Assembly: GCF_020889685.1 (NCBI RefSeq)
Contig: NZ_JACMYO010000007.1
Coordinates: 1-64,000 of the forward strand
From: Bradyrhizobium oropedii
GTDB taxonomy: Bacteria > Pseudomonadota > Alphaproteobacteria > Rhizobiales > Xanthobacteraceae
Direction of reading: 5' to 3'
DNA: 64,000 nt
A program made the translations under genes and the position numbers. This document shows positions 59,500 through 64,000 of the stretch, piece by piece; the first letter of the stretch is position 1; every line of letters begins with the position of its first letter. Under the pieces are notes generated by a model. That model made no database searches and had not been told where the DNA came from. It was given only the letters and a program-made list of their open reading frames with translations.

Positions 59500-59620
59500 G
59501 TCGTCCCTGCGAAAGCAGGGACCCATACGCCGCGGCGGATGTTGTGAACGGGAATCGTCGTTCCGGCGTCGTTCAACGATAACTATTTGTGGTTATGGGT
59601 CCTTGCTTTCGCAGGGACGG
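59500..59620. repeat. Dispersed repeat (GTCGTCCCTGCGAAAGCAGGGAC family), copy 3
   Basis: GTCGTCCCTGCGAAAGCAGG and CCTTGCTTTCGCAGGGACGG at its edges, CCATACGCCGCGG and GGTTATGGGTCC inside. Third copy, after 19358-19488 and 46107-46231. Confidence 0.85.
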
Positions 59621-59954
59621 CACCGAATGTGTGGCACGGCCAGTGAGCCATACGTTCGCATTCTCGCGACATGATTCGCCCGAGCTTTGCATCTCGACCG
59701 CCCTCCTCACACAGAGGGCGCAGGGAAAGGCGGGTGCCGATCGCACCCATGGAGCTCCGCTCGGCGCCGGCCAGATTCAAAAAGCACGCTGCCCCTGCGC
59801 AACGATGGTCATGGCGGATGTCTTACAATAGGAACCATTGGAACGGATCGGTCCGGCCTGATTTGATTCTCCATATCCTATTCCGTGGGACGCCTTCGGA
59901 GCGTTGCCTACCCACTGCGGACCTGCCCGACCGATCGGGCGAAAGGTGCGCAGC
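59621..59954. other. Region upstream of Crp/Fnr gene, no gene recognised
   Basis: About 330 bp. Open frames are arginine/serine-rich and not protein-like. Two GGAAC boxes (59832, 59842) are present, but neither has a GTT at the right spacing for an EcfG promoter. Presumably carries the Crp/Fnr promoter. Confidence 0.5.
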
Positions 59955-60638
59955 ATGGACAATCCGCTTCGCAACGAACTCCTGGCACTTCTCCCTCCTC
60001 GGGACTTGCAATCGATGACCGCGAAGTTGCATGTCGTGGAGTTCGCTCAGGGCAAAGTCATCCAGAACGAGCACGAGGAAGTCAGGGACACTTACTTCCC
60101 GCTATCGGGCATGCTCTCGCTCCTGGTTGTCCTGAGTGACGGGCGGATGGCTGAGACCTCCGTCGTCGGGAGGGAAGGCTTGATCGGTGCCCGCGCCGGC
60201 CTTGGCTCACAAATGTCGCTGGTCCGGGTCGTCGCGCAGTTGCCCGTGCGAGCCTTGAGGATTTCGATGAAAGACTTCCGGGAGGTCCTGGCAAGCAGTG
60301 CCGTGCTGGCGGAATTATGCCTCAAGAATGCTGACGTATTGCTCGATCAGGCCCGGATCACTGCCGCCTGCAACTCGCTTCACCTCGTCGAGGAGCGCTT
60401 CTGTCGCTGGTTGCTCCATACTGCTGACCGGGCAGAGAGCGACCAATTCGATCTCAAACAGGAATTGCTCTCCCAGATGCTCGGGGTGCGCCGCACCACG
60501 ATCACGGATACCGCCAAAACCCTTCAAAAGAAGGGAACGATCACTTATTCGCGCGGGAAAATGCAAATACTCAATCGCCTCGCCCTGCAGCGTCATTCGT
60601 GCGAGTGTTACGAGTTGCTGAAGCGAACCAGCTCCTAA
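59955..60638 (+). CDS. Crp/Fnr family transcriptional regulator
   Basis: A 227-residue regulator. N-terminal cupin-like cNMP-binding domain (LHVVEFAQGKVIQNEHEEVRDTYFPLSGMLSLL, then TSVVGREGLIGARAG) lacks an obvious cAMP-binding RxS motif. C-terminal HTH has LLSQMLGVRRTTITDTAKTLQKKGTITYSRGKMQIL. Cysteines near residues 133, 147, 160 and 217-219 do not form an FNR Fe-S pattern. The ATG at 59955 is the family start. It precedes the island of small genes. Ligand unknown. Confidence 0.92.
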   Translation: MDNPLRNELLALLPPRDLQSMTAKLHVVEFAQGKVIQNEHEEVRDTYFPLSGMLSLLVVLSDGRMAETSVVGREGLIGARAGLGSQMSLVRVVAQLPVRALRISMKDFREVLASSAVLAELCLKNADVLLDQARITAACNSLHLVEERFCRWLLHTADRAESDQFDLKQELLSQMLGVRRTTITDTAKTLQKKGTITYSRGKMQILNRLALQRHSCECYELLKRTSS

Positions 60639-60751
60639 TTCTTTATCGCTGTCCGCGAAGAATTAAGTCGACAACCCGACATAAGAGGAATCTACTTCCC
60701 CCATCACTGCCCCGCCATCGGCATCTATCAGTGATGAGAACGCCAGTTGCG

Positions 60752-60771
60752 CTCCCGCCCGGCAAGGGGAG
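60752..60771 (+). promoter_or_regulatory. Hairpin containing the ribosome binding site of small gene 1
   Basis: CTCCC (60752-60756) can pair with GGGAG (60767-60771) of the ribosome binding site, leaving a 10-nt loop. The same layout precedes the paralogue at 61634. Possible translational control. Confidence 0.4.
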
Positions 60772-60778
60772 TTGCGCC

Positions 60779-60979
60779 ATGACAGAGCGGCGTCGTTTCA
60801 AGCAAATACTAACTCTTCAAGAGCGGCTGACCTCCTACGCACAGGAAGCGCGCGAGGATGCTGCCCTCTTGCCCCCTTGCGCCGAGAAAGAGGACCTGCT
60901 CCGCAGGGCGCGGCAGGCCGATACGGCATCGCATCTGGACGAGTGGATCTCCTCGCCCGGACTGCAGCCGCCGAGATAG
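60779..60979 (+). CDS. Small protein, paralogue family member 1 (66 aa)
   Basis: ATG at 60779 behind AAGGGGAG. It starts MTERRRFKQILTLQERL and has ARQADTASHLDEWISSPGLQPP at the end. It is clearly related to the proteins at 61634 and 63292: shared basic start, LxLxxRL, central RxxAxxLP, E+ExLLxxARQ and terminal H-xxxW-xSPGL-xxP. All helix, no membrane segment or signal peptide. Function unknown. Confidence 0.85.
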   Translation: MTERRRFKQILTLQERLTSYAQEAREDAALLPPCAEKEDLLRRARQADTASHLDEWISSPGLQPPR

Positions 60980-60981
60980 TC

Positions 60982-61182
60982 ATGTACGAGAAAAGACCTG
61001 CCAACTTCGCGGTTTCGGGCGCCGGCCTTTCCTCAACATCTGTCATCGTTCTCGATCTGACAGACGAGGAAACTGCACTCGACATCGGTCGACGGATTGC
61101 CGCGCTAACCGGACGCACGCTGACAGTCAGGAATGAGGAGGGACTGCCTCTCGCAACCTTCGAGGGCGCGAGAAAAAATTAG
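60982..61182 (+). CDS. Small hypothetical protein (66 aa)
   Basis: ATG at 60982, two bases after the preceding stop. Reads MYEKRPANFAVSG, then VIVLDLTDEETALDIGRRIAALTGRTLTVRNEEG: a compact alpha/beta pattern with a strand, helix and strand. Probably cotranscribed with the preceding small gene. Family not recognised. Confidence 0.7.
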   Translation: MYEKRPANFAVSGAGLSSTSVIVLDLTDEETALDIGRRIAALTGRTLTVRNEEGLPLATFEGARKN

Positions 61183-61213
61183 GAACCTCCTTTGGTTCCG
61201 CACATTTCTCATT

Positions 61214-61453
61214 ATGCCACGATTTTATTTCGACTTCCTCGACGATGGCGGGACCTCGGTCGATGAGACCGGCGCGGAATTTCCGAGCCGGGAAGCAGCG
61301 AAGCGAGAGGCGTTGGAAACGCTTGGGGTGATTGCTCGCGATCTCGGTCATCGGCACTTGCAAGGCCACGTCGCAATCCACGTCCGAGACGACGGCGATC
61401 CGCCGTTTCTCGAAGTTGCGGTTACGTTGGAAGTCAAACCTGTCAGCAAATAA
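61214..61453 (+). CDS. DUF6894 family small protein
   Basis: A 79-residue protein starting MPRFYFDFLDDGGTSVDETG and containing EAAKREALETLG, the N-terminal hallmark of DUF6894. Family members are common in rhizobia and of unknown function. The gap to the preceding gene holds a small GGAACC/GGTTCC hairpin (61182-61199). Confidence 0.8.
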   Translation: MPRFYFDFLDDGGTSVDETGAEFPSREAAKREALETLGVIARDLGHRHLQGHVAIHVRDDGDPPFLEVAVTLEVKPVSK

Positions 61454-61602
61454 GGCGCGACACCTGGATACGCGCCGCCATCGATCTCACGGACTTGTGA
61501 GTCCGGTTTCCGACTTATAGCAACCTTTCCTGAACCGAACCGTTTGCACACATCACCGGCCGAGGCGTAGCCCGTAGGCGTCGGTGGCTGAGAGACTGTC
61601 GT

Positions 61603-61627
61603 GCTCCCGCCTGCAAAACAAGGGAGC
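61603..61627 (+). promoter_or_regulatory. Hairpin containing the ribosome binding site of small gene 2
   Basis: GCTCCC (61603-61608) pairs with GGGAGC (61622-61627) of the ribosome binding site, 13-nt loop. Parallel to 60752-60771. Confidence 0.4.
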
Positions 61628-61633
61628 AGCGCC

Positions 61634-61837
61634 ATGACCAAACGGCGTCGTCGCGTGCCTCAAACCCAATCGTTGGAACTGCGGCTCACCCAAGAGGCAT
61701 ACGATCTGCGTGAGACGGCGAAAGCCCTCCCTCTCGGCCGCGAGCGCGAGTCGCTGCTTCGCAAGGCTCGGCAGGACGAGACAGCCGCCCATCTGACCGA
61801 GTGGCTGACTTCGCCCGGCCTGAGGTCACCGAGCTGA
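61634..61837 (+). CDS. Small protein, paralogue family member 2 (67 aa)
   Basis: ATG at 61634 behind AAGGGAG. It begins MTKRRRRVPQTQSLELRL and ends with LLRKARQDETAAHLTEWLTSPGL-type sequence. Same family as 60779 and 63292. The leader (AAGGGAGCAGCGCCATGAC) also resembles that of member 1, so duplication included the ribosome binding site. Function unknown. Confidence 0.85.
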   Translation: MTKRRRRVPQTQSLELRLTQEAYDLRETAKALPLGRERESLLRKARQDETAAHLTEWLTSPGLRSPS

Positions 61838-62255
61838 GACCCCGCTGGGTTCTGCTTGGAGCAGTGTAGCAGCAGTGAAGAGGGCATCGGCATGCTTTTC
61901 TTTTTCTGGCGCCTAGCAGGCCTGCCGACCCTGCCGACTTAGTCCGTACGGTGCGGCCTATCGCGATGCACACGACAGCGGATGACCGGCTACCGGTGCG
62001 GCTCGCGCCTTTCCTGGTTTGAATATCCTCAACAAGAAGGCCGCTGACTGTGAGATCAACGGCCTACTGGGTTTCAAACAATACGAAATGAAACAGCTTC
62101 GCCCTCCTCCCCAGCGCTCGAAATCATCGGGGAGAATTCATGTTCGGGAAATCACCTATGTGAATCGACGTAGCCTATCCTTGCGGCCGAATGTCCTGAC
62201 TGCGACCGCGTCGGGGCGCCGGCGTCATTCCGTCGCTTCGAGGCGCAGAAGGAAC
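61838..62255. other. Intergenic region with no gene recognised
   Basis: About 420 bp. The longest plausible starts give peptides of fewer than 20 residues (for example an ATG at 61891). An open frame from 62019 joins the next gene but its first 79 residues are low-complexity and basic, so I start the next gene at 62256. No clear repeat. Confidence 0.5.
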
Positions 62256-62546
62256 ATGCGTTTTTACCACCAGTTGATTCCCCATCTGGCCGGGAGCGCT
62301 ACGGTGGTCAAAACGCTGATTTTGGCAAAGGACCTGGAGTTGACTGCCCTGCAGGAAATTCGAGCCTTTCCCGGCGCTAAATATGTGGTCTCGGTTCATC
62401 TCGAACATGCCGGCGTCACATGGACGCTCGTCGTAAGCGCGAGGGAAGGTGCCGATCTCGATCGTATCCATTATGCCGTGCGGACGACTGAAGAGCGCCT
62501 GAAACATCGATACAAGCTGCGACATGATCCGGGGCCTTCGCAATAG
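62256..62546 (+). CDS. Small hypothetical protein (96 aa)
   Basis: ATG at 62256, just behind AAGGA. Reads MRFYHQLIPHLAGSATVVKTLILAKDLEL, then ALQEIRAFPGAKYVVSVHLEHAGVTWTLVVSAREG: an alpha/beta pattern with strands alternating with helices. The C-terminus is basic. No family recognised. An in-frame extension to 62019 is open but unlike a protein. Confidence 0.6.
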   Translation: MRFYHQLIPHLAGSATVVKTLILAKDLELTALQEIRAFPGAKYVVSVHLEHAGVTWTLVVSAREGADLDRIHYAVRTTEERLKHRYKLRHDPGPSQ

Positions 62547-62683
62547 ATCCTCTTGGAACGAACCGCACCCCGCAGAGTCGAATCAAAACCTCCCGGCTCC
62601 TCAGCACGAAGCACCTCCGGAGGAATGCCCGGTGCTGCGGCGTACCTCGCGGCGCCGAGCAGCCTTTCGGAAGGCGCCGACCG

Positions 62684-62887
62684 ATGACGAGTTTGAAAAT
62701 GCCAGTCGACGAGATCGAGTATCAAGGGCATCGACTAGTCATCGTCGAACAACGAGGCGGCGGCTATTTGGTTGAAATCACACCCCTTGCCGGCGGCCCA
62801 ACGATTAGAACGCAGACCTTCCAAAGCACTCAAGAGGCGATCGCCAGGGCCAAGGCGACTGTGGCGAAACATCCCGGCAAGCGATGA
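62684..62887 (+). CDS. Small hypothetical protein (67 aa)
   Basis: ATG at 62684 (alternative at 62699). Contains IEYQGHRLVIVEQRGGGYLVEITPLAGG and TFQSTQEAIARAKATVAKH: a beta-hairpin followed by a helix, which resembles small DUF-type proteins in rhizobia. Ribosome binding site weak. Function unknown. Confidence 0.65.
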   Translation: MTSLKMPVDEIEYQGHRLVIVEQRGGGYLVEITPLAGGPTIRTQTFQSTQEAIARAKATVAKHPGKR

Positions 62888-62921
62888 GCATCCCGACCCG
62901 GCGCGGTGGCATGAGGCGGCC

Positions 62922-63053
62922 TTACTGTTTCCATGGCGGGCCGTCCTCCTGCTCCAGGGCTTCGGCCAGCTTCAGCCAATCGGCGGCGAGGTCCAACCAT
63001 GTTGCTGCATCGAATTCGCTCCGTGCCTTATCCGCACCGTGCCTTGTCCGCAT
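62922..63053 (-). CDS. Small hypothetical protein or fragment related to the 63826 gene
   Basis: Minus-strand frame ending at 62922. Its last 30 residues contain ATWLDLAADWLKLAEALEQED, similar to EAWLRAAAEWSKLAQEAEQR of the gene at 63826. The start is uncertain (63053 chosen; a longer frame runs to 63182 but looks non-coding). Could be a truncated copy. Confidence 0.4.
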   Translation of the reverse strand: MRTRHGADKARSEFDAATWLDLAADWLKLAEALEQEDGPPWKQ

Positions 63054-63216
63054 TCGTGCGGCACCGCTCCGTTCTCTCGCGGCATTCATCCGCCAGGGTC
63101 GATCCACGCATCTGAAAGAAAGGGCTGTTCGCCAAACTCGCAGCGCGTCACCGCGCGCTGGCCGATGAGGTCGAGCGGGCACTGGGCGCCGCCGCCAAGC
63201 CCGATTCGCAATCCCA

Positions 63217-63241
63217 GGAACCCGGCCGATCCCGCGGCGTT
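63217..63241 (+). promoter_or_regulatory. EcfG-type general stress promoter candidate
   Basis: GGAAC (63217-63221) and GTT (63239-63241, preceded by C) with a 17-bp spacer match the alphaproteobacterial sigma-EcfG consensus. It lies about 50 bp upstream of small gene 3. Confidence 0.55.
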
Positions 63242-63291
63242 ATGACTCCCGTTTTTAGGTCAGTCATTTTGCGTTGTGGGAAAGAGCAGAG

Positions 63292-63495
63292 ATGAAGCAG
63301 CAACGACGGCGCGTTAAGCAGGTTTTGTCCCTTGAAGAGAGATTGAATCTCGAAGCGCAACAGCTGAGGCAGCGCGCCAACGAGCTGCCTCCGGGGATCG
63401 AGAAAGAGGCTGTATTGGAGCAAGCCCGGCAACACGATGCCGCTGCTCACATGACTGCATGGCTGGCTTCTCCCGGGCTCTCGCTACCCGAATAG
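63292..63495 (+). CDS. Small protein, paralogue family member 3 (67 aa)
   Basis: ATG at 63292. MKQQRRRVKQVLSLEERL, central LRQRANELPPG, then EKEAVLEQARQHDAAAHMTAWL and SPGLSLPE: third member of the family at 60779 and 61634. Preceded by the EcfG-like promoter, which suggests a general-stress role for this copy. Function unknown. Confidence 0.85.
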   Translation: MKQQRRRVKQVLSLEERLNLEAQQLRQRANELPPGIEKEAVLEQARQHDAAAHMTAWLASPGLSLPE

Positions 63496-63825: not shown

Positions 63826-64000
63826 ATGTCCGATCATCAAGAGATCGCACGATTCCGCGCACAGGCCGAAGAGTACCGGCTGCAAGCGGAACGCGCCGTT
63901 AGTCCCCTCGACAAGGAAGCATGGCTCCGCGCCGCTGCCGAATGGAGCAAACTGGCGCAGGAAGCCGAACAGCGCGGACGGTGTGGCCGCCTTATGTGGC
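63826..64000 (+). CDS. Small hypothetical protein, cut by the window end
   Basis: ATG at 63826; at least 58 residues. MSDHQEIARFRAQAEEYRLQ, then RAVSPLDKEAWLRAAAEWSKLAQEAEQR: a strongly helical, charged protein of a type common in Bradyrhizobium. The gene runs off the window. Function unknown. Confidence 0.75.
   Translation, partial: MSDHQEIARFRAQAEEYRLQAERAVSPLDKEAWLRAAAEWSKLAQEAEQRGRCGRLMW

Follow-up and report, generated by a model that had tools for sequence, protein, structure and literature searches.

A candidate RNA leader shared by unrelated small-protein genes in Bradyrhizobium and its relatives

What do three related genes of 66 to 67 codons, packed into less than 3 kb, have in common, and how might they be controlled? 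This question is raised by the window that we analyzed, bases 1-64000 (64,000 nucleotides [nt]) of contig C7 (NZ_JACMYO010000007.1) of Bradyrhizobium oropedii, whose assembly (GCF_020889685.1; here the host genome) comprises 9.04 Mb in 513 contigs. A preliminary description of this DNA had reported three paralogues of 66 to 67 amino acids (aa) starting at 60779, 61634, and 63292. We found this to be true: 27 of 67 aligned columns are invariant, and copy 1 shares 53% identity with copy 2 and 52% with copy 3. We also found that copies 1 and 2 start with a conserved leader of about 85 nt whose 3' end is the start codon. We propose, with a probability of roughly 0.7, that these two copies belong to a small-protein regulon gated by one cis-acting RNA leader. 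The genes and leaders lie as follows.

60779-60979, plus strand: copy 1 of the 66-aa family; 66 aa; ratio of nonsynonymous to synonymous substitution (dN/dS) about 0.34-0.58 against orthologues at loci L056-L058
61634-61837, plus strand: copy 2 of the 66-aa family; 67 aa; dN/dS about 0.37-0.53
63292-63495, plus strand: copy 3 of the 66-aa family; 67 aa; without the leader
60700-60781, plus strand: leader of copy 1; arms of the first hairpin (P1) 60703-60709 and 60729-60735; arms of the Shine-Dalgarno (SD) hairpin (P2) 60749-60756 and 60767-60775
61549-61636, plus strand: leader of copy 2, CTGAGAGACT variant; P1 arms 61552-61558 and 61582-61587; SD-hairpin arms 61601-61608 and 61622-61630

Sequence and structure of the leader

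We searched for the leader with two covariance models, R1 and R2, and assessed pairing on two alignments, A3 (55 leaders) and A4 (119 leaders). Leader 1 scored 77.7 bits with R1 (E = 4.0e-12 in the genome) and 78.8 bits with R2, compared with 15.2 bits for the best background in the window. Leader 2 scored 53.2 bits with R1 and 58.3 bits with R2. We compared the sequences upstream of 148 distinct 66-aa family members; many of them have a conserved block that runs up to the start codon, with the consensus CAUCACCGC-n-GGC-nn-AUCGGUGAUGAGAACGCC-n-GCGCUCCCGCC-n-GGAGCAGCGCC-AUG, with CGGUGRCUGAGAGACC as a variant. P1 is AUCACCG:CGGUGAU, and in the second hairpin the SD sequence is paired with GCGCUCCC. 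P1 of copy 1 is itself covariant, having ACUG:CAGU in place of ACCG:CGGU.

We found that 90.6% of cells pair in A3, compared with 28-43% when the arms are slid, and that the A3 covariation score of 0.109 (0.090 in shuffled alignments) was reached by 0 of 500 shuffles. In A4, 88.5% of cells pair, compared with 35-53% with slid partners. Both sides changed in 9 of the 15 pairs of A4 where 5.1 were expected, which 2 of 500 shuffles reached, and 26 cells were changed on both sides, compared with 9.2 in the shuffles (reached by 0 of 500). This covariation supports both hairpins, more clearly in the larger set, A4.

The 5' arm GCGCUCCCGCC is conserved beyond what pairing needs, and this excess hints at a second partner. 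Minimum-free-energy (MFE) folds of some leaders contain alternatives to P1: the 3' arm of P1 pairs with a downstream CGCCG in L086, and GGC of the P1 loop pairs with the CGCC of that downstream segment in L042 and L112. Such P1-replacing folds are a possible switch in these predictions. Two further ideas were set aside. A pseudoknot between GGC/GGU of the P1 loop and GCC of the P2 loop was unsupported and is not counted; GCC is nearly invariant on A4 by eye. A possible likeness of AUCACC and CUCC in the leader to the 3' tail of 16S rRNA is broken by the P1 covariants. Separately, we observed a type II leader in 16 of the 148 family members, with GGAAC, GCATATT, and ACCC-n-CGG-n-TTAGGACCCGTAAG followed by GAGG and ATG (for example, L065:3950-4003 and L071:3950-4003). 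It may be another shared element.

Distribution of the leader and the genes behind it

R1 found the leader, at 1-30 copies each, in 24 of the 25 genomes sampled in the genus, and in 0 of 16 genomes of other families. Across the bacterial family, R1 matched 67 of 149 genomes and 28 of 47 genera at E ≤ 0.01, the genus figure being an upper bound; the weak matches L143, L144, and L259 looked false by eye. By these searches the leader is more widespread than the 66-aa protein (up to 28 compared with 9 of 47 genera, the protein being counted at E ≤ 1e-3). In the host genome, seven leaders reached E ≤ 1e-3 with R2. In order-wide and class-wide searches, up to 17 candidates were scored per genome, so that counts are lower bounds; R2 found the leader in at least one genome of the order beyond the bacterial family (G285, where the open reading frame [ORF] is a DUF6894 protein, 7.1e-19) and in at least one genome elsewhere in the class (G596, where a clear leader is followed by an ORF of 91 aa).

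To this we added an unselected census of two single-contig genomes (R2, E ≤ 1e-3), which gave 13 leaders in G021 and 11 in G161. All 24 end at a start codon, a match that is not fully independent of the model since the start codon forms its last three positions. The ORFs behind them are 26-84 aa long in 23 of 24 cases, and the remaining one encodes a Crp/Fnr regulator of 244 aa.

We then considered 163 distinct leaders, a set partly selected for not adjoining the 66-aa family. For leaders away from that family, 40 regions were inspected and then 20 more together with the loci already prepared; in one batch of hits, 50 of 51 were inspected and the weakest was left out. ATG, GTG, or TTG ends 160 of the 163 leaders, the median ORF is 66 aa, and 3 ORFs exceed 150 aa. 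The 66-aa family follows 96 of these leaders and other ORFs follow 67, which fall into 13 BLASTP clusters of at least two each (44 proteins), 14 singletons, and 9 ORFs under 25 aa. The genes behind leaders that do not adjoin the 66-aa family include zinc ribbons, DUF6894 proteins (6.4e-10), and single-transmembrane (single-TM) peptides of 32-40 aa, as well as a 73-aa "MPISRLL" family, several helical families, and degenerate 66-aa members. Several of the zinc-ribbon clusters may be distantly related to one another. A Crp/Fnr regulator stands behind the leader in two different genomes (L250 and L297). The occurrence of the leader before so many unrelated tiny genes suggests one shared switch for small-protein production.

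In the host genome, we observed leaders at C26:22229-22307 (plus strand), before a 22-codon single-TM-like ORF; at C26:22693-22774 (minus strand), before a 20-codon DUF6894-like ORF; and at C306:6130-6209 (minus strand), before an intact 32-aa single-TM peptide. Part of the regulon genes appear to be decaying in this genome.

Promoters, mechanism, and competing explanations

The promoter motif of EcfG, which acts in the general stress response, is GGAAC-N16/17-CGTT. In 145 non-redundant leaders, we found that promoter-like motifs occupy a fixed register: GGAAC peaks at -30 to -26 from the 5' end of the leader (15 occurrences), TTGAC at -40 to -36 (14 occurrences), and [CA]GTT at -10 to -6 (31 occurrences). 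GGAAC starts within -46 to -30 in 14 of the 145, compared with a shuffle mean of 2.2 and maximum of 6. The motifs are recognizable in a minority of leaders, but their fixed register suggests that transcription starts at the 5' end of the leader or close to it, from promoters of two classes or more. Ahead of the leaders L107, L104, L103, and L082, a TGTGTGCACAAGTGGACA-like sequence recurs at the promoter position and is perhaps an operator. At about 85 nt the leader counts as long, because 5' untranslated regions (UTRs) of Bradyrhizobium japonicum are typically 20-40 nt (PMC4842269, available in part).

The strict EcfG motif was present in 9 of 116 upstream regions of the 66-aa family (shuffle mean, 0.16). 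In the window, two sites concern the three copies.

63217-63241, plus strand: perfect EcfG-type match, GGAAC-N16-CGTT, 75 nt 5' of copy 3
61520-61544, plus strand: promoter-like GCAAC-N16-CGTT immediately before leader 2; differs by one base from the EcfG -35 element and is weak

Copy 1 has no EcfG-type motif. The window holds 2 EcfG-type matches where 0.90 are expected, and the copy 3 motif alone is not significant. Five matches lie within 8.0 kb of C7 (63217-71206), where the genome density predicts about 0.14, in a comparison made post hoc. Two of the five stand before a PRC-barrel protein (70506, minus strand) and before a protein of 77 aa that, by eye, looks secreted (64712, plus strand). 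The preliminary description had seen a small-protein island here, perhaps for stress. A stress link of the locus is plausible in view of the five clustered matches, whereas the paralogues are not specific to the island. The idea of a stress island is partly supported, and in our reading the regulon would be linked to stress in part. The perfect motif 5' of copy 3 is also the likeness to the EcfG/PhyR regulon; unlike in that regulon, copy 1 is without the motif, and few of the 163 leaders have it directly 5', others lying behind TTGAC-type motifs.

In the mechanism that we propose, the mRNA would start near the 5' edge of the leader, with EcfG-type promoters driving a minority of leaders and sigma70-like promoters driving others. 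The second hairpin would keep the ribosome-binding site closed. Some signal, whether a ligand, a trans-acting RNA or protein, or ribosome loading, would open it, and a set of small proteins would then be made together. The predicted openness of the SD sequence at 30°C was 0.18 in 141 leaders, lower than at 132 other gene starts (0.34) and than in leaders whose 5' part was shuffled (0.30). Between 30 and 50°C the openness of the leaders stayed flat (0.18, 0.185, and 0.19). These predictions, low and insensitive to heat, favor a closed state that is opened by a cause other than heat.

Several results weigh against an RNA leader that gates these genes. In A3, double changes occurred in only 4 of 15 pairs, a number reached by 30 of 500 shuffles, and A4 was aligned to the R1 structure and so is not independent of the model. 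In about half of the A4 rows, the last P2 pair and the first P1 pair fail. RNAalifold, run unaided on A3, found P1 and missed the SD helix. Single leaders fold no better than shuffles (the two window leaders have z = -0.67 and -0.49; the best of seven was -1.69). The MFE fold of the copy 1 leader has P1 in register and the SD hairpin shifted, and that of the copy 2 leader has the SD hairpin in register and P1 shifted. R2 found no leader match near copy 3 in the window. A strict leader pattern is missed by 74 of the 148 family members, of which several, including copy 1, fit by eye. On the promoter side, just 12 of 163 leaders have a complete (relaxed) EcfG-like promoter directly 5', and across the genome the EcfG pattern shows no enrichment, with 161 matches in 9.04 Mb compared with 199 for a reversed-pattern control.

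ROSE elements, found in the same genus, are likewise short 5' leaders with several copies per genome and the SD sequence in a hairpin. Our leader could accordingly be read as an RNA thermometer whose SD hairpin is melted by heat, and the general arrangement of ROSE agrees with a hairpin that sequesters the SD sequence close to where many small genes start. We consider this unlikely. The predicted openness hardly changes up to 50°C, and no melting was predicted such as a simple thermometer needs; ROSE is not among the Rfam matches listed; and no small heat-shock protein was present among the 10 + 2 downstream proteins scanned in Pfam, the rest being judged by eye. Compared with ROSE thermometers and other SD-sequestering 5' leaders (PMC3669281, available in part), the leader is alike in its shortness, copy number, predicted SD hairpin, and genus, and unlike in having diverse small proteins downstream and no gathering-level Rfam match. 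When 27 leader-bearing stretches were compared with Rfam release 15, no leader match reached the gathering score. The family snR67 overlapped leader 1 at chance level (16.9 bits, gathering score 55, E = 4.6), and the sole gathering-level match was a tRNA elsewhere in L074.

Less probable than a thermometer is a DNA element, an operator or composite promoter bound by a transcription factor and not acting as RNA. The leader is indeed conserved above what its helices need, chiefly in GCGCTCCCGCC. However, compensatory changes keep both helices, and the promoter-like motifs lie in a fixed register 5' of an element whose own 3' end is the start codon.

We give still less credence to a mobile or copied element like the repetitive extragenic palindromic (REP) sequences, traveling with gene duplication and without a regulatory role. 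Its many copies per genome and the broken or very short ORFs behind some of them (9 of 67 non-family ORFs) would fit such an element, but the 24 copies of the census stand at start codons and not at random intergenic sites, and many genera retain the leader in front of unrelated genes. Br-REP1 and Br-REP2 of B. japonicum lie in 3'-UTRs and have other consensus sequences, and the BjsR RNAs of that species are presented as orphan small RNAs (PMC5082802, available in part). All of these are repeated structured elements of the genus; a start-codon leader is not described in the available part of PMC5082802.

Least probable of all is that the upstream block is coding, with ATGAGAACG in the leader as the true start or the start of a leader peptide: of 65 non-redundant leaders, 49 contain ATGAGA or ATGAGG, and in copy 1 this sequence shares the frame of the 66-aa ORF with no stop between, but this ATG keeps no phase to the main start (20, 17, and 12 cases in phases 0, 1, and 2), so that the block is not an N-terminal extension, and it is absent in 16 of 65, the CTGAGAG variant lacks it, and the loops vary in length without keeping frame.

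Our preferred reading thus remains a cis-acting RNA leader. It would be a translational leader RNA, a known kind of element; what would be unusual is that it is common to many unrelated small-protein groups. The motifs of Corbino et al. are reportedly the Rfam families SAM-II, metA, speF, serC, suhB, and ybhL. Those motifs, structured alphaproteobacterial leaders found by comparison (Corbino et al. 2005; PMC1273637, available in part), come from the same bacterial class as our leader, and none of them is among the Rfam matches listed here. The Rhizobiales-1 motif is a candidate RNA of the order with no Rfam accession in the table that describes it (Weinberg 2010; PMC2864571, available in part). 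In that part it is apparently marked as not cis-regulatory, which would set it apart from our leader; the two may nonetheless be identical. We recognized no description of the leader or of the 66-aa family in the literature, which was covered only in part.

The 66-aa family and its neighbors

We built a family profile from the three window copies and counted a place at E ≤ 1e-3. The host genome has 12 such places, of which five are on C7 between 60779 and 71043, two of them just beyond the window (C7:67745-67939, minus strand, and C7:70873-71043, plus strand). All 25 genomes of the same-genus sample, the host among them, carry the family at 2-27 places each. Because the profile finds 12 places in the host and 2-27 per congener, the likeness of the three copies is not due to chance, and the idea that they are particular to an island did not hold. 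Within the bacterial family, the profile matched 37 of 149 genomes, in 9 of 47 genera; in other families of the order, it matched none of the 16 genomes searched. A 66-row profile matched 9 of 249 genomes of the order, 8 of them in the same bacterial family; the ninth match was weak and interrupted by a stop. In Bradyrhizobium plasmids (8 records), annotated family places are labeled "hypothetical protein." By their sequences, the 66-aa proteins are an undescribed multicopy family of Bradyrhizobium and relatives. Of 142 named loci, 80 were kept, all from Bradyrhizobium except for a Nitrobacter locus and a locus of an unclassified Hyphomicrobiales; R2 gave no leader match at E ≤ 0.01 for the family member in Nitrobacter (L135).

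Copies 1 and 2 compared with their orthologues in L056-L058, three named Bradyrhizobium genomes, gave dN of 0.14-0.19 and dS of 0.31-0.54, which points to moderate purifying selection. Frames not conserved in relatives would have spoken against the preliminary description; we found them conserved. The dN/dS values are evidence of selection and not proof that the protein is made.

The three window copies fell below every Pfam and NCBIfam cutoff, and PADLOC and PHROGs, used without a stated cutoff, gave 0 families at E ≤ 0.1 for the 66-aa protein. DUF6381 (Pfam PF19908) was matched by 1 of 66 family members (6.7e-5), whereas the other 65 had no match to it at E ≤ 0.01. Med12, Ish1, and PX gave weak Pfam matches to 1-2 of the 66 members each (best, 9e-4). 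AlphaFold2, run for copy 2 with a 66-row alignment, returned a two-helix hairpin (residues 14-31 and 36-52) with a short helix at 54-58 (mean predicted local distance difference test score, 86.1; predicted template modeling score, 0.62). The predicted product is a hairpin of two helices that carries a basic N terminus and a WxxSPGLxxP tail. Foldseek with this model gave 0 matches at E ≤ 0.001, and the best VIA-align Z score was 6.5, in a range common among helical models. Kinship with other helical small proteins (set A6, including the window ORF at 63826) was rejected, with an hhalign probability of 0.7%. The same holds for phage or defense genes, since PHROGs (7 window proteins) and PADLOC (5) gave 0 families. 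As a guess, the 66-aa protein might be an adaptor or binding protein used in times of stress and diversified through duplication.

The tail recurs beyond this family. A WxSPGLxxP ending is present in 83 of 132 family members of 60-80 aa; in the window, it is encoded at 60947-60976, 61805-61834, and 63463-63492. Many zinc-ribbon proteins have, by eye, similar ends such as GWLxGELxPPx (compare L196, L294, and L316), and in 15 of 30 zinc-ribbon loci the leader directly precedes the zinc-ribbon frame in position and strand. Outside the 66-aa family, a loose tail motif was not enriched (22 frames, compared with 26 reversed and 33 shuffled, over all closed frames). The tail common to the two groups could be a recognition tag or chance, and it stays a lead.

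The other genes around the three copies are as follows.

59955-60638, plus strand: Crp/Fnr-type regulator, upstream of the cluster; shares 39% identity with both products of the leader-bearing Crp/Fnr genes (L250 and L297)
60982-61182, plus strand: orf60982, 66 aa, a conserved neighbor; dN 0.088 and dS 0.45-0.51 in L056 and L057
61214-61453, plus strand: DUF6894 protein; DUF6894 genes elsewhere carry the leader
62256-62546, plus strand: 96-aa ORF with few relatives (4 tblastn matches in the 80 named loci)
62684-62887, plus strand: orf62684, 67 aa; 91-95% identical in L056-L058; dN 0.03-0.08 and dS 0.45-0.55
63826-64000, plus strand: small ORF crossing the window end; 96 codons on the contig

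The Crp/Fnr and DUF6894 genes had been named before, and both names were borne out by domain matches (cNMP_binding, 4.4e-11, and HTH_Crp_2, 9.1e-13, for the first; DUF6894, 1.9e-15, for the second). We found that orthologues of the crp gene, copy 1, orf60982, copy 2, and orf62684 are grouped in L056-L058, with orf60982 partial in L058, where its codon counts were dropped. The adjacent DUF6894 orthologue is kept in two of these three loci. For orf60982 (L056 and L057), the DUF6894 gene (L057 and L058), and orf62684 (all three), dN was 0.03-0.11 and dS was 0.37-0.55; by these values the three genes are more constrained than copies 1 and 2. At 59500-59625, 5' of the Crp/Fnr gene, we observed by eye an inverted pair, CCCTGCGAAAGCAGGGACCCAT and a near reverse complement, that looks like a REP-type repeat.

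A broader reading is tentative, and we hold it to be rather less likely than not to be right in full. According to it, the leader would be a new class of regulatory RNA and the common translational switch of a bacterial microproteome, with about a dozen or more unrelated small-protein groups in many alphaproteobacterial genera opened together under stress by one ligand or trans-acting factor, and with several of these proteins sharing a C-terminal W-L-x-x-x-L-x-x-P tag for a common partner. For most bacterial small proteins, function and trigger are unknown, and the leader offers a handle on many unrelated ones, both in Bradyrhizobium, to which the soybean symbionts belong, and in as many as 27 other genera of its family. 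Because it marks the start codon, it can also serve to locate small genes that annotation has missed. Finding what opens the leader would reveal the condition in which the whole set of small proteins is made.

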